From positions 1 to 34,904 of the IMG/VR virus record IMGVR_UViG_3300010885_061168: 34,904 nucleotides of DNA, one strand, 5' to 3'. A model generated the notes under the pieces. The model saw nothing but the letters and a program-made list of their open reading frames with translations, was not told the DNA's origin and did no database searches. How positions within the stretch are numbered: the first letter of the stretch is position 1; the number at the start of each line of letters is the position of its first letter. This document shows, piece by piece, positions 1 through 16,971 of the stretch. Both the position numbers and the translations under genes were made by a program. The stretch is from a virus.

Positions 1-171
1 CATACCGTTAACAACTCCTAATGAGTTATAAGCACCTGCCGACTCATTCAATGAGTGGTAGTGACAATATTTTGACAACCAGCCTTTTTTGCCTTCGTCA
101 GTGATACCCGCTTTGCTCTCGATAATCGGAGTCCAGGTATCATAGATTTCTTGTTCGTTAATTAGTTTCAT
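1..171 (-). CDS. 23: Major capsid protein gp23, N-terminal 57 residues only (cut by window edge)
   Basis: The first 57 codons of a gene that continues beyond the window start. The product would be the major capsid protein of the T4-like head. The N-terminus (MKLINEQEIYDTW, then IIESKAGI and WLSKYCHYHSLNESAG) resembles the N-terminal region of marine and other T4-like gp23 proteins as I remember them. It contains SLNE at residues 40-43, which may correspond to the L-T-E site where T4 gp21 removes the gp23 prosequence. The ATG at 169-171 follows an A-rich leader with no Shine-Dalgarno. The gene lies directly downstream of the protease-scaffold gene, the same order (21-22-23) as in T4. The family call rests on a short stretch plus context; the gene is partial only because of the window limit. 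Confidence 0.75.
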   Translation of the reverse strand, partial: MKLINEQEIYDTWTPIIESKAGITDEGKKGWLSKYCHYHSLNESAGAYNSLGVVNGM

Positions 172-200: not shown

Positions 201-2276
201 TTATCTGTTAAATTTTTTCCCTAAGGATTCAGCGATATAATTCATATAATCGTTTGAATATCCAAAAGAAGGTTTTTGATTTTCGTTAATCGTTTCGTTC
301 TCTTCTAGTTTTTGAAGTCCTACAGGAGATGCTCCTAAATTTCTAGTTGTCCAGAAGTTTCTAATTTGGTAAGGGGTATTTAATTTATAGAAGTGACTTT
401 GTGCAATAATTGATTGCTGATGTCCTTCATTTAAAGATTCCCAAACCGCTTTATATTCATCTGGCATCTCATCTATAAATTTGATGCCTGCTGCATTAGA
501 ATTCTCATCCTCTTGATTAGATTCGAATAACGGATTTTTTGGTGCCTTTAGTGTGTCGGCGAAATATCCTCCAATTTTATTTGAAGTAGCTTCAGTTTTT
601 TGAGTTTGAACTGATTCTAGTAAGCTATCGATTTTTGAAGATAAATCTGTGTAGGTACCAGCATATCCTGAGGATTTTAATCCTGAAGCTGCTGTAAGAT
701 CTACATTTTCATTTATCTTTTGTCCTGCAAATCTATCTTTTCCTTCCATAGATTCTGCTATGTATTCGGAGTATTCAATAGATTTACCAAGTTTTTCTGC
801 TAAGTACTCTGTGTATTCGATTCCGTTATTTAGGTTTTCCCCTAGATATTCAGAATACTCTACGTTATTGTTAACGTTTTCTGCGATGTGCTCAGAGTAA
901 GCTATATTATTATTTAAATTTTCTGCAATATGCTCAGAGTAAGAAATGTTATCGTCAACATTTTCTGCTAAGTATTCAGTATATTTAATAGTATTATCTA
1001 AATTTTCTGCTATGTATTCAGTATAAGAAATATTAGTATCTACGTTTTCTGCTAGATATTCAGAATAAGAAACATTCTGATCTAATTTTTCTGCTAAATA
1101 CTTAGAGTATTCGATATTCTTATCAACACTTTCTGCTACGTATTCCGTATAAGAAATATTCTTATCTACATTTTCCGCTAAATAATTAGCATAAGTAATA
1201 GATTTATCTAAGTTCTCTGCAAGGTATCCAGTATAAGAAATATTCTGATCCATGTTCTCTGCAAGATACTTGGAATAAGAAATATTCTTATCTACGTTTT
1301 CTGCAAGATACTTTGAATAAGAAATAGATTTATCTAAATTCTCTGCAAGATACTCGTTATATTTAATAGTACCTTCTAAAGACTCTGCAAGATACTCTGC
1401 GTATTTTTCAAGCTTAGATATTCTAAGATCGCTATCACTGTTATTAGATTCAGAAACTGGATTGCTTCTTAATCTAGACATTTCAGATTTCATTGAATCC
1501 ATTTCTTTCTTTAAAAAGACAGAATATTGGTCAAGTTCTTCTGATGTAACAAATTCATTATTTCTTTCCATAAGGCTGGTTGTTTTTTCTTTCTTGTTTA
1601 ATAATTTTTCAAATTCTTCATCATTATCAACTCTATATATCATCATTGAATCCTGATTTTTTAAACCTAGGCTTTCATTTAGACATTCTAGATGATTTAC
1701 TATACTATTATTTTTAATTTTTGAGTATTCTGAATGGCTATAACCACAGCTTTCGTAAACTCTTTCAAGTTGCGCATTCTTAAATCCTGGATCTGCAACT
1801 AAGTCGTAAGTAAATATTTTTTTGATTTGAACTTTTTTATCTGATCCTACTGAACCAGCAGCTCTTGAAGAAATTGAAAGTGGAATGCCAGCATCAACTA
1901 AACTTTTTGCTATTCTTCCAGCTGGGGTATCTAATAATTTAACTTTTATTTTTAGAGTTCTTTCCCCTTTGTTATAATTTAAATCAGTAACTAAATGTGA
2001 AATATTTTTTAAAGAGATATCAAATTTTTCTGGGTGATCTAATTCACCTAAAAGTCTTTGTTGGCTTATCTTATCCTGTAAATAATCTAAATGAGGAAGA
2101 TATTCATTCTCTTCATATATCCTATGATTATTATTTTCTTTACCGAAAACTGCCGCTATACCTTCTAACAAATACTCGTCATTAGAATTTTTTTTAGATT
2201 CTAATATACTAGATTGTTTTTCCAGTATGAAAACGAAATCTTCATTTAAAGACTTTAATCCTTTCATCTTATTCAT
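201..2276 (-). CDS. 21: Prohead protease (gp21-like) fused to a repeat-built scaffold (gp22-like), 691 aa
   Basis: Residues 1-180 match the T4 gp21 prohead protease family: LLGELDHPEKF with the likely catalytic His at 81, and IPLSISSRAAGSVG with the likely catalytic Ser at 136 or 137. The third triad residue is uncertain. Residues 181-290 are a charged linker. Residues 292-515 are 16 tandem copies of a 14-residue unit (consensus Y-s-e-Y-L-A-E-N-l-D-k-n-I-s), predicted helical or coiled-coil, as expected for an internal scaffold. Residues 516-691 are non-repetitive, but a stray unit (YMNYIAESLGKKF) ends the protein at 677-689. In T4 the protease and scaffold are separate genes 21 and 22; here one unbroken frame covers both. 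The gene is followed by gp23, as in T4. A methionine pair at 211-212 could start a free scaffold. The start ATG has an AT-rich leader containing a GATATATA motif. The protease call is strong; the scaffold role is inferred from position and repeats. Confidence 0.85.
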   Translation of the reverse strand: MNKMKGLKSLNEDFVFILEKQSSILESKKNSNDEYLLEGIAAVFGKENNNHRIYEENEYLPHLDYLQDKISQQRLLGELDHPEKFDISLKNISHLVTDLNYNKGERTLKIKVKLLDTPAGRIAKSLVDAGIPLSISSRAAGSVGSDKKVQIKKIFTYDLVADPGFKNAQLERVYESCGYSHSEYSKIKNNSIVNHLECLNESLGLKNQDSMMIYRVDNDEEFEKLLNKKEKTTSLMERNNEFVTSEELDQYSVFLKKEMDSMKSEMSRLRSNPVSESNNSDSDLRISKLEKYAEYLAESLEGTIKYNEYLAENLDKSISYSKYLAENVDKNISYSKYLAENMDQNISYTGYLAENLDKSITYANYLAENVDKNISYTEYVAESVDKNIEYSKYLAEKLDQNVSYSEYLAENVDTNISYTEYIAENLDNTIKYTEYLAENVDDNISYSEHIAENLNNNIAYSEHIAENVNNNVEYSEYLGENLNNGIEYTEYLAEKLGKSIEYSEYIAESMEGKDRFAGQKINENVDLTAASGLKSSGYAGTYTDLSSKIDSLLESVQTQKTEATSNKIGGYFADTLKAPKNPLFESNQEDENSNAAGIKFIDEMPDEYKAVWESLNEGHQQSIIAQSHFYKLNTPYQIRNFWTTRNLGASPVGLQKLEENETINENQKPSFGYSNDYMNYIAESLGKKFNR
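732..1403 (-). repeat. 16 in-frame tandem repeats of 42 bp (14 residues) inside the protease-scaffold gene
   Basis: Sixteen consecutive 14-residue units cover residues 292-515 with no gaps. The core Y-x-x-Y-[LIV]-[AG]-E-[NSK] is nearly invariant, and the [LVN]-[DN]-x-x-[IV] half varies moderately. The DNA copies have diverged, so the array is old enough to be under protein-level selection. A further isolated copy lies at 204-248, at the C-terminus of the same protein. Confidence 0.95.
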
Positions 2277-2333: not shown

Positions 2334-5300
2334 TTATCTTTTGGCTAATTCTAATTGTTCTTCCTCTGATTCTCTATCATTATTTGCTTTTGCTAAAGCT
2401 AAAGCAGTTTCCCATCCAGGTTCGCCTTTTTCGATTTTTCTAGATTTATCTCCAAATTTAGCTTTTCTGTTTTTAATTTTTATCGTTTCTGCATTTCCGC
2501 TACCGTCTCTTATTATCTTTATACTAGTTACATCATCCCAATCAGATATATCTAGTTGGCTTAATTGATCAGGGCTTATTCTTTCTATAGTGGTTTTTAT
2601 TTCCTCTTTTTCCCCTCTACCCGATGATAAAGGAGCTACTTCTTCTTTGTCTCTAGCTGAATTGATATTAGCAGTTAATATAGATTGACTAGATTTTGAA
2701 TCATCACCTTCAAGATCTTCATCTTTCAACTTAGTTTCTGTGTCTTTTGAAGAAAAATTATAAACTCCTTTTTTAGCATCTAATAGAAGATCTAAGTTAT
2801 TTACTTGAATATCTCCTTCTATATCTGCTCCTTCCGATGCTTTTATTGCAGATGAATCTAAGCTAAAATTCATAAAGCTTCCCGGCTGATATACGTCTCT
2901 CAATTCGGGATCTGCATATTCTCTATTCTCAACAAAATAAATAGAAAAAGGTATCGGTCCTTCTATGGTATCCAGAACCCTTTCGAAATTCTCATTCATT
3001 TGTTTTGCTGTTAGAACCTGAGAACCTATTGTGGTTCCTTTTATATCTTCTAATCCGGGTTTCTCTTCTTCTCCCCCTATCTCTGTTGGTAATTCTTCAA
3101 CCCCAGGTTTAAGGATTCCCCCTTCTATAGGGGGATCTTTTTCTAGTAGCAAAGATTCTTTTATTAGCTTAAAATCAGAAAATGAAGTTATAGGCTTAGA
3201 TTCACCTATGGAAGAATACCATTTATAATTTTCATTACTTGCAAGCTCTATATTTTCTGGGGAATCCAGAGGTTTTTCTTCTTCCGTACCATCGGAAGGT
3301 TCCAAAGAAGATTTAGCAGAGTTTTCTAATGATTTTCTTTCTTCTTTCTCTTCTTCCGTTTCATCATCAGGATTTCCGATATAAGAAGAAATAGGATCTA
3401 CGTTAAAGAAAGAATTTATTTCTTTTTCTGATGCATTTTGTAAATCTTCATCTGTGATTTTACTTCCTGTAACATTTATGACATTAGATTCTGAATCCTC
3501 GAAATGGAAATCAAATGTATCAGGAGAAGATCCGTCTACAACTACCAATTGATCTTTCATGGCTTTGGATTCGGCTATAAAAACTACAGGATCGCAATGT
3601 CCATAATAAGATATAGGAAGTACCCCGTCTTTACTGTCTGGATTACTCTTAGCACCTAAAAAATAAACCCCGATATTATCATCCGCCCATCCTTCTTCAT
3701 AGGTAGCATTTTTTATAAATAAAAACCTAAGATCGTATTCTTTAATTCCATCCCATATACCTTTGTAATTAACACTATTGACGATAAACATAGAAAGATT
3801 TCCAGCTTGATCGAAATCACTAATCTTCGTAATGTTCATTGTAGTTCTAGTAGAATTGGACATTACAAAACTTAAAGCCATTGCAAATCCCTTCTCTGGA
3901 TTCTGTGTCCAACATAAAGTTATAGTTTCCCCTACGTTTATATCGGCAGGATTAAACGAATTTTTTGCATTGGGACAAATAGTTGCTACGTAATCTTTCA
4001 TAGAATCTCCTTTTCCCCCTACGATAGGAGCCCAAGAAGGTGCTTGATTGTCACTGGTATAGTTCATAAAAGATCCAACTGCATCGACTGCTAAAAGAGC
4101 CCATCCTATAGGATTTGACCATTTTGCAACACCCCCTAGAATTCTAGATCCCTTAGCAACAACACTTGCGGTTCTTGCTAAATTTTTTGCCTTTCTTCCA
4201 AATAGTATATACCTTGCGAGTTTCCATCCTTTAAACGCACTTTTACCTTTGCTCATAAATGCGGTCTTTCTATAAGTTCTATAATTTTTTACTATACTTA
4301 AAGGATATCTAACGAATTTACCTATCGCCGAGTTCTTTGCAAAGTTTTTAAATCTTCCTAGTTTACTAGCATTCTTAGCTGCTCTTCTAGCAGATAATAA
4401 ATCAGTTGCTTTCCCTGCACTTAGTAAAGCATTAGCAGCTTGGCCCAATCTGAATGTGTGGAAATATCTCATTGCTACAACTGCACCTATTATTCCGGTT
4501 TTTTGAATCCCGGATAAAGCTGCTAACCCACCGAATATTTTTCCAGTAGTAGTTTCTAAAGCTCCGTTAAGCTTATCCCATATACTATTTACATTTTTTA
4601 CGACTGCTTCTAAAACCCCCGAGAATCCTCCCTCCCCGTCTGATCCCAGATTGGGTGACAATTGGGTTATTTTACCTGCAACCATAGGAACCTCTATATC
4701 CCCCTGGGAAAGAATTACTGCATCAACCTCGAATAAAATTGCAACCATTGCCTTATCGTCGGATTTTCCTGTTTCTGGATCAAATGCAGTTACAAAAATT
4801 TCTATTCTATCCCCGGTTTTCAATTTGGTTAAATCCAATACTTTTTCCATTTTCCCCGAATTCCTAAGATGATTTCGGGTGAATAAAAATCTAATTAATC
4901 TCCTTTGGTCAGATGTTAATTTTCCTTGTTGGAAATTAGGATCATCACCCTCCCATTCCAATCCTTTCCCTGTTACATTAGTACCAACATTTCCTAATAA
5001 GGGTATTCCTGCAATTTCATTTAACGATTCTGATTTTTCTTTTTCGTTTAAAAAATCTGAGTATGTAGATATTTTTCTTTCTTTCTTTTCTTCAGTCTCT
5101 TCGGATTCACTAGTCCAATCTCCTGAATTTTTATTGTATTTTCTACCTGTACTTTTTAGATATGCTTCAAATTCATTTGCAGGACAATACCATTGAAAAT
5201 CTTCAAGATCTATTTCTTGTCCAGATTTTTTTACTATATCAGGGGTAAGCTCTATAAATCCTAAATTTCCTCCTCTTCTTATTATACCTGATTTGTCTGG

Positions 5301-5501
5301 AGCGGTTAGGAACAAAATAGAATTGTGGGATCCCATTATGTCGGTAAGATCCGGATTTTCTGCATTCTTATCAGGATCGTTTTTTGGTTCTTCTGCCGGT
5401 CCTTTAGGTTCGTCTTCCTCGTATAGTTTAGATATACCTATCCCATTATACATGTAAGATAAAAGAGATTCTTTAACTGATTTTTTTTCCATATTAATCA
5501 T
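2334..5501 (-). CDS. Large virion-like protein of unknown function, 1055 aa
   Basis: I do not recognise a family. Residues 1-160 are acidic and end in KISTYSDFLNE (144-153), which strongly resembles the T4 capsid-targeting peptide KTYQEFIAE. A second similar stretch, ITSFSDFKLIKESLLLE, lies at 771-787. Residues 200-300 look like a folded domain. Residues 315-480 are Ala/Gly-rich, hydrophobic and very basic, with potential amphipathic or membrane-active helices (for example 335-345 and 462-478). Residues 490-700 look folded, and 700-1055 are mostly acidic and low in complexity. The gene sits between a nucleotidyltransferase and the head protease gene and overlaps the former by 8 bases, so it is probably co-translated with it. 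A packaged or injected head protein, possibly cut by the prohead protease, is the best inference. A second ATG (Met4) is an equally possible start. Confidence 0.8.
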   Translation of the reverse strand: MINMEKKSVKESLLSYMYNGIGISKLYEEDEPKGPAEEPKNDPDKNAENPDLTDIMGSHNSILFLTAPDKSGIIRRGGNLGFIELTPDIVKKSGQEIDLEDFQWYCPANEFEAYLKSTGRKYNKNSGDWTSESEETEEKKERKISTYSDFLNEKEKSESLNEIAGIPLLGNVGTNVTGKGLEWEGDDPNFQQGKLTSDQRRLIRFLFTRNHLRNSGKMEKVLDLTKLKTGDRIEIFVTAFDPETGKSDDKAMVAILFEVDAVILSQGDIEVPMVAGKITQLSPNLGSDGEGGFSGVLEAVVKNVNSIWDKLNGALETTTGKIFGGLAALSGIQKTGIIGAVVAMRYFHTFRLGQAANALLSAGKATDLLSARRAAKNASKLGRFKNFAKNSAIGKFVRYPLSIVKNYRTYRKTAFMSKGKSAFKGWKLARYILFGRKAKNLARTASVVAKGSRILGGVAKWSNPIGWALLAVDAVGSFMNYTSDNQAPSWAPIVGGKGDSMKDYVATICPNAKNSFNPADINVGETITLCWTQNPEKGFAMALSFVMSNSTRTTMNITKISDFDQAGNLSMFIVNSVNYKGIWDGIKEYDLRFLFIKNATYEEGWADDNIGVYFLGAKSNPDSKDGVLPISYYGHCDPVVFIAESKAMKDQLVVVDGSSPDTFDFHFEDSESNVINVTGSKITDEDLQNASEKEINSFFNVDPISSYIGNPDDETEEEKEERKSLENSAKSSLEPSDGTEEEKPLDSPENIELASNENYKWYSSIGESKPITSFSDFKLIKESLLLEKDPPIEGGILKPGVEELPTEIGGEEEKPGLEDIKGTTIGSQVLTAKQMNENFERVLDTIEGPIPFSIYFVENREYADPELRDVYQPGSFMNFSLDSSAIKASEGADIEGDIQVNNLDLLLDAKKGVYNFSSKDTETKLKDEDLEGDDSKSSQSILTANINSARDKEEVAPLSSGRGEKEEIKTTIERISPDQLSQLDISDWDDVTSIKIIRDGSGNAETIKIKNRKAKFGDKSRKIEKGEPGWETALALAKANNDRESEEEQLELAKR

Positions 5502-13089: not shown

Positions 13090-14712
13090 TTATATAGTAA
13101 CTGATGGAGTTTCTTCTCCTTCAGGAGCTGCTGCTCCACCTTCTGCTGCCCCACCTTCTTTAGCTGCTTTTCCTGCTTCTTTTTCTTCTCTTTTTTTATA
13201 CTCCTCGTTAGTTTTGGCTTGATCTGGGGTTATACCTAAGTATCTATTTATAAGGAATTCTTTGTCAAAATAAGGGGTTTCGGTTTCCCCTATCTTCATT
13301 TTTATTTCTCCCAGGCCATTCACAAATTCTATCCTTTTAGTGAATCCTCCCATTTGGATCATTTCCTCTAATTCGCTTTCCCTGTAGTAATTTAGTCCTA
13401 ATTTACTTTTAAAATTTCTATCTTTTGCTAATTCAGGATGGTCTAGACACATTTGGATATAAAGAGGTTTTACCAATATCTCTTGGAATATAGATCTAAG
13501 TCTTCTTAAAAACTTTTCGAATCTAATTTCATCTCTTTGCATTTGATCTACCCCCGTTTGATAGTTTATAGGAGCAGAGGATCTAGAAGAAAATCTTGCA
13601 TAAGGTATCTTAGAATCCATCTTTAACTTATTAAAGAAATAAAGAACATTGTCCATTATATTAAAATCCGGTCCACTTGGGTTTAAAGATGATATATCAG
13701 GGGTCTGTCCGTCTTTTTCAGGAAATAGATAATTCTTATAAAATTGAACTTTAGGCTTTCCGTTTATTGTTAATTCACCAGAATTATCATTTATTGAAAT
13801 ATCTTCTTTATAGTTAGACATTATCTGTCCTAGAGTTTGTAATGCTTTCTGTTGGGATTGGGTTCCTGTTGGAATTACAAATTTAAGTCTATAAGAAGCA
13901 TTCATAACATTCCATATAATTCTGGTGTTCTCCATTATTTTTAGAATGTTATAAGATCTTATTAGTCTTTCAGCATAGCTAACTCGGGAAACCGAATTTC
14001 CTTTAGCATAAGAAATGTATATGATCTGTTCATTAGTAAGTCTTCTAGACATCTGAGGATTAGTTGGGTATTGTATCCAGAATTGTTGATATTCTTCCTC
14101 GCTTATTTTTTCAACTACCGGTTGAAGAGATGTGGGATCTAGTTCTTTAAATCCTATTATTTCTTTCCCCTTATTATCATAGATTATTTCAAATGCTAAA
14201 AATCCATCAATTAGGAGTTGTCTAAAATATTGCCACCCCAGATTAGAATTTTGGAATCCAAATACATTATAAAGTCTATTATAATGGTCAGTTATTTTAT
14301 CTAGTATCTTATCTTTAAGATCTATATTTAAAGTAGATGCGGTAGCAAAGAAATTTCTATCGTCATAACTTATAGATTCGTCACAAACAGTATCTAGTAT
14401 AAATTCTATTTCGCCATTAAGTGAAAACTTTCTTAAGAATTTTCTTTTCTCCAAATAATCTCTATCAAAATAAGCAATGTATTTTCTTATCTTAACATCT
14501 TGATGTGAAAGTAGCCATTTAAAAGCATCGTCTTGGGTAAACCCAGTACCTTCTGAATTAAAGAAAGAACTTTCTGTCTTACCTATAGCTTGAGAATTTC
14601 GTACAACCATATCATCATATTTCATACCGAAACTAGATATTTTTCCGAGATTCCTCATTATATTCCCAAAAGCTGATCTATTGGGTTGCTGGTAATCTAA
14701 AAATCCTGCCAT
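13090..14712 (-). CDS. 20: Portal protein gp20-like, second copy, 540 aa
   Basis: Portal vertex protein, a 12-subunit ring through which DNA enters and leaves the head. Typical T4-like portal segments are present: SFGMKYDDMVVRNSQAIG (27-44), FILDTVCDESISYD, GWQYFRQLLIDGFLAFEI, ELDPTSLQPV, IIYISYAKGNSVSRVSYAER, and a helical region up to LNYYRESELEEM. The C-terminus is Ala/Gly/Glu-rich and ends EETPSVTI. The length is close to T4 gp20 (524). It lies 9 bases downstream of a paralogue of exactly equal length, with the same start (MAGF) and end. Both copies keep all conserved blocks, so neither looks like a pseudogene. Confidence 0.9.
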   Translation of the reverse strand: MAGFLDYQQPNRSAFGNIMRNLGKISSFGMKYDDMVVRNSQAIGKTESSFFNSEGTGFTQDDAFKWLLSHQDVKIRKYIAYFDRDYLEKRKFLRKFSLNGEIEFILDTVCDESISYDDRNFFATASTLNIDLKDKILDKITDHYNRLYNVFGFQNSNLGWQYFRQLLIDGFLAFEIIYDNKGKEIIGFKELDPTSLQPVVEKISEEEYQQFWIQYPTNPQMSRRLTNEQIIYISYAKGNSVSRVSYAERLIRSYNILKIMENTRIIWNVMNASYRLKFVIPTGTQSQQKALQTLGQIMSNYKEDISINDNSGELTINGKPKVQFYKNYLFPEKDGQTPDISSLNPSGPDFNIMDNVLYFFNKLKMDSKIPYARFSSRSSAPINYQTGVDQMQRDEIRFEKFLRRLRSIFQEILVKPLYIQMCLDHPELAKDRNFKSKLGLNYYRESELEEMIQMGGFTKRIEFVNGLGEIKMKIGETETPYFDKEFLINRYLGITPDQAKTNEEYKKREEKEAGKAAKEGGAAEGGAAAPEGEETPSVTI

Positions 14713-14721
14713 TTCTTTTTA

Positions 14722-16344
14722 TTATATTGTTACTGCTGGGGTTTCTTCTCCTTCGGCAGCTCCTGCTTCTCCTTCTTTTCCACCTTCTTTTTTAGCTTCT
14801 TTTTCTTTTTCTTTTTTCTTTCTCTCTTTTATTTCCTCGTTTGCCTTAAGATCTTTCTTATCGATACCCAGGAAATTTTCAACAAGGAAAGGAACAGAAA
14901 AATAAGGCTTTTCGTCATCACCCATTAACCCAACCATAGCGGTAACGGATTCTTTTCTTTTGTTTATAACATCTATCTCCTGGTTTACTTTAAAAGGATT
15001 ATCAGAGAAAAAATTTAATCCTAGCTGTGATTTAAAAATAAAGTCTTTTTCTAATTCTTTGTGTTTCTTTACTATCTGAACCCAAAGGGGTTTAATTAAA
15101 ATATCTTGGAATACTGTTCTTAATCTCTCTATGAATTTAAAAAATCTTATCTCGTCTTTATCAAACCCTTCCCCGACATTCGAGTACGTGGCCGAGCTAC
15201 CACCCTCGGGGGTAGAAAATCTAGAAGGTGGTATTTTACTTTCCTGTATATACCTATCAAAGAAATAATTCAATGGAGTTGAATCGTTTAAATTAGGTCC
15301 TTCACTATTTATAGGTTCTATAGTAGGAGTTCCCCCCTGACCTGATGGCATTAAATAATTTTTATAAAATTGAATTTTAGGCTTTCCGTCTATCATCAAT
15401 TCCCCTGTTTGATCATTTAAATCAAAATCCTCTTTATAAATACTCATTAATTCCCCTAGAGTCTGCATCCCTTTTTGCATAGATTTAGTACCTACAGGAA
15501 CAGTCATTTTCATTCTGAACTGAGAATTCATCACCGACCATATTACTCTAGTGTATTCTATTGTTCTTAGAATATTAAAAGGTCTTATTAATCTCTCTAT
15601 GTAGCTTATTCTAGATATTGAATTTCCTTTAGCGTAGGAAATGTATATTATTTGGGGTTCATAAAGTATTCTTCTTTTTTTAGGGTCCTGAGGATATTGG
15701 GTCCATGTACTAAGAAAAGTTCCATCCGGCTGTTTTTCTACACTGGGAACTAAAGTAACAGGATCCAGTTCTTTAAATCCTATTATGTTTTTACCATCAT
15801 CATCAAATATGATCTCAAATGATAAAAATCCATCAACCAAAAATTGTCTAAAATATTGCCATCCTGTTATATCATCCGAAAATCCCCATATGTCATATAT
15901 CTTTTTATATGCATCATAGAGATCATCCTTGAATTTTTCATTTATGTCGGTAAGATCTAAAAAAGCAGGATAAGCAAAATAATTTGCTGGATCGTACGAA
16001 ATAGATTCATCGCATATTGTATCTAATACCCATTCTATTTCAGGATTTAAAGAAAACTTTCTTAAATAATCTCTCTTTCCTTTATAATCCTTATCAAAAT
16101 ATGTGATGTATTGTTTTGTATTTATGTCCTGTTTAGCTAAAGCCCAAGATAGATTTTCATCTTCTTTTCCTGCATGCCCATCCTTGTTTAAAAAACTAGC
16201 CTCGGTTACCCCTACCGCTTGGGAGTTTCTTACGACCATGTCATCGTATTTCATACCAAAAGTACTGAGATTTTTTACGGATTGTCTTATCCGATCTACT
16301 GCTCCGGGTGATGAAGGTTTATTATTTTCTACGAATCCTGCCAT
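14722..16344 (-). CDS. 20: Portal protein gp20-like, first copy, 540 aa
   Basis: A paralogue of the next gene and likewise a complete T4-like portal protein. Shared blocks include SFGMKYDDMVVRNSQAVG, WVLDTICDESISYDP, GWQYFRQFLVDGFLSFEI, ELDPVTLVPSVE, IIYISYAKGNSISRISYIER and KIQFYKNYLMPSGQ. The C-terminus ends EETPAVTI after a Lys/Glu/Ala/Gly-rich tail. It differs from the second copy in several regions, including the loop at about 350-385 (SKIPPSRFSTPEGGSSATYS here). The ATG follows a leader without a Shine-Dalgarno, 30 bases after the unknown 198-residue gene. Which copy builds the main ring, or whether the two mix, cannot be told from sequence. Confidence 0.9.
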   Translation of the reverse strand: MAGFVENNKPSSPGAVDRIRQSVKNLSTFGMKYDDMVVRNSQAVGVTEASFLNKDGHAGKEDENLSWALAKQDINTKQYITYFDKDYKGKRDYLRKFSLNPEIEWVLDTICDESISYDPANYFAYPAFLDLTDINEKFKDDLYDAYKKIYDIWGFSDDITGWQYFRQFLVDGFLSFEIIFDDDGKNIIGFKELDPVTLVPSVEKQPDGTFLSTWTQYPQDPKKRRILYEPQIIYISYAKGNSISRISYIERLIRPFNILRTIEYTRVIWSVMNSQFRMKMTVPVGTKSMQKGMQTLGELMSIYKEDFDLNDQTGELMIDGKPKIQFYKNYLMPSGQGGTPTIEPINSEGPNLNDSTPLNYFFDRYIQESKIPPSRFSTPEGGSSATYSNVGEGFDKDEIRFFKFIERLRTVFQDILIKPLWVQIVKKHKELEKDFIFKSQLGLNFFSDNPFKVNQEIDVINKRKESVTAMVGLMGDDEKPYFSVPFLVENFLGIDKKDLKANEEIKERKKKEKEKEAKKEGGKEGEAGAAEGEETPAVTI

Positions 16345-16374: not shown

Positions 16375-16971
16375 CTATTTTAATTTCAATTTATATTCTT
16401 TATATATCCCAAATGAACTTAGGCCCTCGAACGTATTCAATTCTAAGTAAGGAATTCTTACCCAATCTTCAGATTTTATCTCTTTTATATTGGAAAAATA
16501 ATCATATTTAAACCCAAAAATAGATTCTTTATATCCCGTTTTATTAAGGATAGAATCTAAATTAGTAGGGGAAAGAGGTAAAGGCGCTTTTGTTTTTTTA
16601 GGGTCAGTATTTTTGGATATCTGGTCTTCGAATTGATCCCAGATCCGACTTAATACGACTTCTCTTATTTCATAGGGTATAGTAGAAAGATCTATCCCGT
16701 AAAGGATATTCTCATTTGATAAGGTTTTTGAATAATTAAGAAAAAGAAAAATAGGATTTCTATTTATAAATTTTCTTTTTTCTGTAATTTTACTAGGGGT
16801 TTTGTATTGAAAAGAATAGATCATTCCGGGAACAAAAGGTAAAGCAAAAGAAGAATATTTACTATTTTCTAAGTAATTTTTAGAAAAAAAATCATTAGCT
16901 TCTTTTATTCTATCCTGCTGGGTTTTATATTCAGTAGAATATTCTTTTATCAATTCGCCAAAACTTTTCAT
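16375..16971 (-). CDS. Unknown T4-like structural or accessory protein, 198 aa
   Basis: I do not recognise a family with confidence. The opening MKSFGELIKEYSTEY looks like a capsid-targeting peptide (a possible cut after E10). Residues 46-98 (PGMIYSFQYKTP, NRNPIFLFLNYSK, ILYGIDLSTIPYEIR) recall a conserved hypothetical protein found near head and baseplate genes in other T4-like phages, but I cannot name it. The ATG overlaps the gp4-like stop by 4 bases, so it is coupled to head completion, and it is followed by the two portal genes. A head or neck role is the best contextual guess. Confidence 0.75.
   Translation of the reverse strand: MKSFGELIKEYSTEYKTQQDRIKEANDFFSKNYLENSKYSSFALPFVPGMIYSFQYKTPSKITEKRKFINRNPIFLFLNYSKTLSNENILYGIDLSTIPYEIREVVLSRIWDQFEDQISKNTDPKKTKAPLPLSPTNLDSILNKTGYKESIFGFKYDYFSNIKEIKSEDWVRIPYLELNTFEGLSSFGIYKEYKLKLK

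Follow-up and report, generated by a model that had tools for sequence, protein, structure and literature searches.

In bacteriophage T4, the prohead protease gp21 cuts after Glu in L/I-x-E motifs (PMC9026906), and most of the fragments that it makes of gp22, gp67 and gp68 are lost from the head (PMC9026906; PMC5694885). The T4 proteins IPII and IPIII begin with MKTYQEFIAEA, a single N-terminal copy of the capsid-targeting sequence (CTS) that is cut as MKTYQEFIAE↓A, and a mutational map of the CTS assigns targeting mainly to residues 4 and 7 and processing to residues 8 and 10 (PMC9026906). In SPN3US and phiKZ, the proteases and propeptides likewise show Glu-specific cleavage with several sites per propeptide; however, their cleavage motif and propeptides differ from those of the phage described here, and these papers report no tandem CTS array for them (PMC10052503, PMC9026906).

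We analysed a window of 34,904 nucleotides (positions 1 to 34,904 of the IMG/VR virus record IMGVR_UViG_3300010885_061168), in which a single minus-strand frame (201-2276) encodes a fused prohead protease-scaffold protein of 691 residues, consisting of a protease, a helical linker, an array of 16 units and a lone C-terminal unit. Whereas T4 gp21 is a separate protein of 212 residues, the protease is here the N-terminus of the fusion; the fold, the GEL[ND]HP and SSR motifs and the place beside gp23 are common to both. The identification of this N-terminal part as a T4 gp21-type (S77) prohead protease is confirmed by family, fold and His/Ser motifs. Pfam Peptidase_S77 (PF03420) scores 29.1 bits, above the curated cut-off of 27, residues 22-228 match the head maturation protease PHROG_207 (E 8.5e-37), and a profile match was obtained to the solved structure of T4 gp21 (5jbl, E 0.0014), which is also the best structural match of the AlphaFold model (Z 9.1, 3.3 Å, 119 residues). 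The mean pLDDT of this model is 46.9, with moderate confidence in the protease part and an array part too weak for helix pairing. On the combined evidence of Pfam, PHROG, profile, structure and alignment, the domain covers about residues 13-183 (1728-2240, minus strand), and it carries GE[LF]DHP (His81, 2034-2036) and SSRAAG (Ser136/Ser137, 1866-1871), both invariant in 20 sequences, where T4 gp21 has GELNHP and SSRG. Two candidate cleavage sites were recognised on the same strand: a putative self-cleavage site, LNE12↓D (2238-2249), at a place where most close relatives have [LI]-[NTQ]-E and which resembles the LIE-9 site of T4 gp21 in that an L/I-x-E motif lies near the N-terminus in both; and LNE201↓S (1671-1682) at the protease/scaffold junction, where nearly all aligned relatives, as well as Lak, have [LIV]NE[SA]. 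Three of the phages that encode the array, hereafter array phages, have a second, short protease-like frame at a distance from their head genes (W01:154846-155139, W04:11437-11790 and G004:289360-289623).

A helical linker (residues 243-291, 1404-1550, minus strand), predicted by AlphaFold with low to moderate confidence and falling within a profile match to a three-helix bundle, leads into sixteen contiguous 14-residue capsid-targeting-like units (residues 292-515, 732-1403, minus strand) with the consensus YSEYLAENLDKNIS, which were detected independently, as a 42-base array, by Tandem Repeats Finder. The post-array region (residues 516-676, 249-731, minus strand) is disordered in part, includes a helical block that is conserved (at about residues 600-647), and is followed by the isolated C-terminal unit YMNYIAESLGKKFN (207-248, minus strand), which contains YMNYIAES at residues 677-684. 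The Glu of this unit is not conserved, most relatives having YMNYIASALEQKF, with YMNYIASA at that place, in the alignment. Beyond it lies the start of a gp23-like major capsid protein gene (1-171, minus strand), truncated by the window end and sharing its N-terminus with the relative L001; the capsid pro-region ends in Y-C-H-Y-H-S-L-N-E↓S, and YCHYHSLNE is invariant in 16 relatives. Like T4 gp22, the scaffold part of the fusion is helical (here by prediction), stands just upstream of gp23 and contains several L/I-x-E sites, and its place beside the capsid and protease genes and its helix content fit a gp22-type scaffold; gp22, however, is a separate gene without the 14-residue array, and a search of T4 with the array found no sequence match. 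The joining of a protease to a scaffold-like part in one frame, the 16 back-to-back units and the fit of nearly every unit to the L/I-x-E rule of gp21 had all been put forward in a sequence-only reading of this DNA, and all three hold, as does the structural relationship to gp21 that it had anticipated; the isolated C-terminal unit as a conserved cut site is ruled out by the replacement of Glu by Ser in most relatives, and a role as a capsid-binding helix is possible for it.

Within the window, position 1 of the units is always Tyr (16/16), position 4 is Tyr in 14 and His in two, position 5 is Leu or Ile in 15 and Val in one, position 6 is Ala in 15 and Gly in one, and position 7 is Glu throughout (16/16); 15 of the 16 units thus read [LI]-x-E, the remaining one being VAE. 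The units share on average 64% identity in DNA and 55% in protein, and their codons differ, with pS at about 0.69, near saturation, and dN/dS at about 0.16, a rough value at such saturation. Because synonymous sites are near saturation and dN/dS is so low, the array is old and held by selection at the protein level. Recent slippage or an assembly artefact is ruled out by the near-saturated synonymous differences among the units and by the retention of the array in relatives. The 235 distinct units collected across relatives show the same pattern, with Tyr at position 1 in 97%, Tyr at position 4 in 93%, Leu, Ile or Val at position 5 in 98%, Ala at position 6 in 89% and Glu at position 7 in 97%, while the polar positions 3, 10, 11 and 14 are conserved at 28-71% only. 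The hydrophobic period of the array is 3.50 residues per turn, that of a canonical coiled coil, and AlphaFold predicts, with low confidence, a continuous helix through the array.

The unit resembles the T4 CTS. The core Y-x-x-[YH]-[LIV]-A-E matches the CTS at all four mapped determinants, namely the two aromatics, [LI] and E, and the Y-x-E-[FY]-[IL]-A-E core of IPII and IPIII is shared together with its targeting and processing positions. T4, however, has a single copy at the N-terminus, whereas 16 tandem copies occur here inside the scaffold. Judged from their sequence, the units are accordingly described as CTS-like and not as CTSs, given that they lie in the interior of a scaffold, whereas a CTS stands at the start of a cargo protein.

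Other proteins carry the same element as an N-terminal tag. The pattern [YF]xx[YF][LIVM]xE within the first 30 residues, which selects exactly IPII and IPIII among 198 T4 ORFs, is present in 56 of the 809 proteins of a 735-kb array phage versus 4.2 in shuffles. The corresponding values in the other four array phages are 10/412 vs 1.3, 11/274 vs 1.7, 12/269 vs 1.8 and 12/241 vs 1.2, it being understood that the five phages are related and that the co-occurrence of array and tags does not amount to five independent cases. No enrichment of the tag was observed in Lak (0/214 vs 1.0 shuffled) or PAU (1/254 vs 0.8). An unsupervised scan for N-terminal enrichment in the 735-kb phage, run over 325,488 gapped four-class patterns with the array proteins excluded to avoid circularity, ranked aromatic-x-x-aromatic-aliphatic-x-Glu second (56/809 N-terminal vs 11/2406 internal), the first rank being held by an overlapping pattern, aliphatic-Lys-x-aromatic-x-x-aromatic. 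Units and tags are not identical, since residue P2 is Ala in the scaffold units and mostly Asn or Lys in the tags. The tagged set of the 735-kb and 373-kb phages comprises otherwise unrelated proteins, with PPK2, adenylate kinase, ATP-grasp, methyltransferase, radical SAM, CHAP and SLT domains. The idea that the tags of the 735-kb phage mark a single expanded gene family was rejected, as mean column identity is 6% beyond the N-terminus and many Pfam families are represented. Some tags of LR756500 do belong to an apparent paralogous cluster, and in the same record (L262:3382-7720) the products of a row of adjacent genes start with MKYI- or MKFI- and continue with a Y-x-x-F-[LV]-x-E tag, which looks like the joint expansion of a cluster of cargo genes and the tag that they bear.

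Related elements occur around the capsid gene and elsewhere. In relatives, M-x-x-[FY]-x-[ED]-[FYW], or a motif very like it, opens most products of the three genes that follow the capsid gene, with [LIV]-x-E within a few residues past this start motif. Shorter arrays, with two to four units each, were found in an 83-residue protein, in a collagen-like Gly-repeat protein and in a 76-residue protein that has a likely membrane anchor. One protein of LR756501 (about 620 kb), 207 residues long (L120:2761-3384), combines collagen-like Gly-x-y repeats with three scaffold-type units and has near its end PYGEEDW, a string also present in a few tagged proteins. Two adjacent small proteins of the same record (L103:15658-16576) contain one or two scaffold-type units each and resemble one another in a hydrophobic helix at the C-terminus, which may tether the growing head to a membrane. 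Within the window, the protein encoded at 16375-16971 (minus strand) begins with MKSFGELIKEY, which comes close to the tag but has Leu where the second aromatic would stand.

We propose, as a somewhat probable explanation, that the scaffold is a polymer of CTS-like elements that would form a coiled-coil core, co-assemble with tagged cargo and then be cut after Glu by the fused protease. The array units would pack together as long coiled-coil helices to build the prohead core, and head proteins bearing a single N-terminal element would be drawn into this core by like-with-like packing, for which the T4 CTS provides a precedent. Through the fusion, the protease would be brought in 1:1 with the scaffold; it could then cut the linker at LNE201↓S, thereby freeing itself, and subsequently the scaffold units, the capsid pro-region and the tags, always after Glu, so that the core would be dismantled and the cargo released. 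It counts against this proposal that five of the 11 units of LR756500 are without Glu, and that P2 is Ala in the units and mostly Asn or Lys in the tags. A search for the 14-residue array in the T4 and PAU genomes found none, which is no proof of absence; T4 uses its CTS with gp22, where no array was found, and the array is therefore not needed for CTS function.

The sequence-only reading had seen in the array a self-shredding scaffold, whose units would serve mainly as cut sites and whose 14-residue peptides would leave or fill the head; the likeness to the tags would then reflect a shared protease specificity. That Glu7 is kept while the polar residues around it vary speaks for a protease site, the [LI]-x-E motif recurs in nearly all window units, and the fate of T4 gp22, gp67 and gp68 offers a parallel. 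We nevertheless consider cutting as the main function unlikely, for L/I-x-E would suffice for the protease, yet the two upstream aromatics of the units are almost as constant as the Glu, and the N-terminal tags, too, are defined by aromatic-x-x-aromatic. The expectation that relatives would keep the L/I-x-E core is borne out for the great majority of their units and fails in part in LR756500, where positions 1 and 4 are still Tyr or His in the five units that have dropped Glu. This loss, together with the Ser that replaces Glu in the C-terminal unit of most relatives, suggests that assembly may be the primary constraint, perhaps a deeper one than cleavage, and that cutting at each single unit may be dispensable. 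The CTS match and the tag, which the sequence-only reading had missed, make assembly and cargo recruitment, and not self-shredding alone, the likely role of the array.

Also improbable, in our estimation, is a plain coiled-coil scaffold, a heptad pair grown by unit duplication in which Glu and the likeness to the tags would be coincidental: the clean hydrophobic period, the continuous model helix, the copy-number changes by whole units and the partial loss of Glu in LR756500 are all consistent with it, whereas a near-invariant Glu7 beside freely varying polar positions, the agreement, at each of the four mapped residues, with a T4 CTS known from independent work, and a tag motif that was found without reference to the scaffold and is confined, among the tested phages, to array phages plus T4, argue against it.

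Fusion by itself does not set this phage apart. In relatives from 38 first-round viral contigs, in the 20 aligned sequences and in phage records of 462, 635, 636 and 735 kb, protease and array share one frame in every case that includes both ends. A search with the array only revealed it in at least 468 viral contig stretches, and among the best 80 of these 468 matches, all 79 complete frames (79/79) are fused to the protease. The conservation of fusion and array that a homologue search was expected to reveal is thus established, and the repeat number varies by whole units, from about 9 to 16 among relatives. With 16 units in the window, 13 in the 373-kb relative and 12 in the 735-kb phage, a function of the repeat number as a head-size ruler is ruled out. 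Lak (in which TAG is read as Gln), Tenacibaculum phage pT24 (528 aa) and Flavobacterium phage MaF61 (1404 aa) have, as here, a protease N-terminus and a scaffold-like C-terminus in one frame but no 14-residue array, and separate genes are kept in T4, PA5oct, PAU, P-SSM4 and Marzo. The array-less fusions indicate that the fusion is a wider trait and that the array marks one large group. No array was detected in a search of plasmids. True fusions were established from sequence and not from names: 'prohead core scaffolding protein and protease' was rejected as proof of fusion, as this name includes short gp21-like proteins and has been given to a protein of 176 aa (PMC8504454). The bS21-encoding freshwater phages of up to 331 kb, in which the neighbour of the capsid gene is listed as 'prohead core scaffolding and protease' (PMC9723584), may be relatives.

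The S77 protease and the T4 CTS were known already; for tandem targeting sequences in a scaffold, or for a tag census in huge phages, no published description was found in the literature searched, which included few subscription journals. More broadly, we suggest tentatively that the head core of a large group of huge phages may be a covalent polymer of CTS elements of which each cargo protein bears one copy, and that the tag may list the packaged or injected proteome, polyphosphate kinase and adenylate kinase included. If this is true, recruitment would be a matter of like-with-like packing, candidate cargo of huge phages that are uncultured could be listed from sequence alone, and a short modular signal would become available for loading proteins into large capsids. 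The question bears on how the core recognises the T4 targeting sequence and on the contents of giant phage heads.

Two further observations concern other genes of the window. The gene just upstream of the fusion (2334-5501, minus strand, 1055 aa) has a weak tape-measure match and contains YSDFLNE (residue 147) and FSDFKLIKE; a large gene is found at this place in relatives too, and its product could belong to the head interior and be cleaved at these motifs. Phages usually have one portal gene; the window encodes two T4-like portal proteins in tandem (13090-14712 and 14722-16344, minus strand; Portal_T4 E 2.7e-65 and 1.2e-55), with a mutual identity of 50%.
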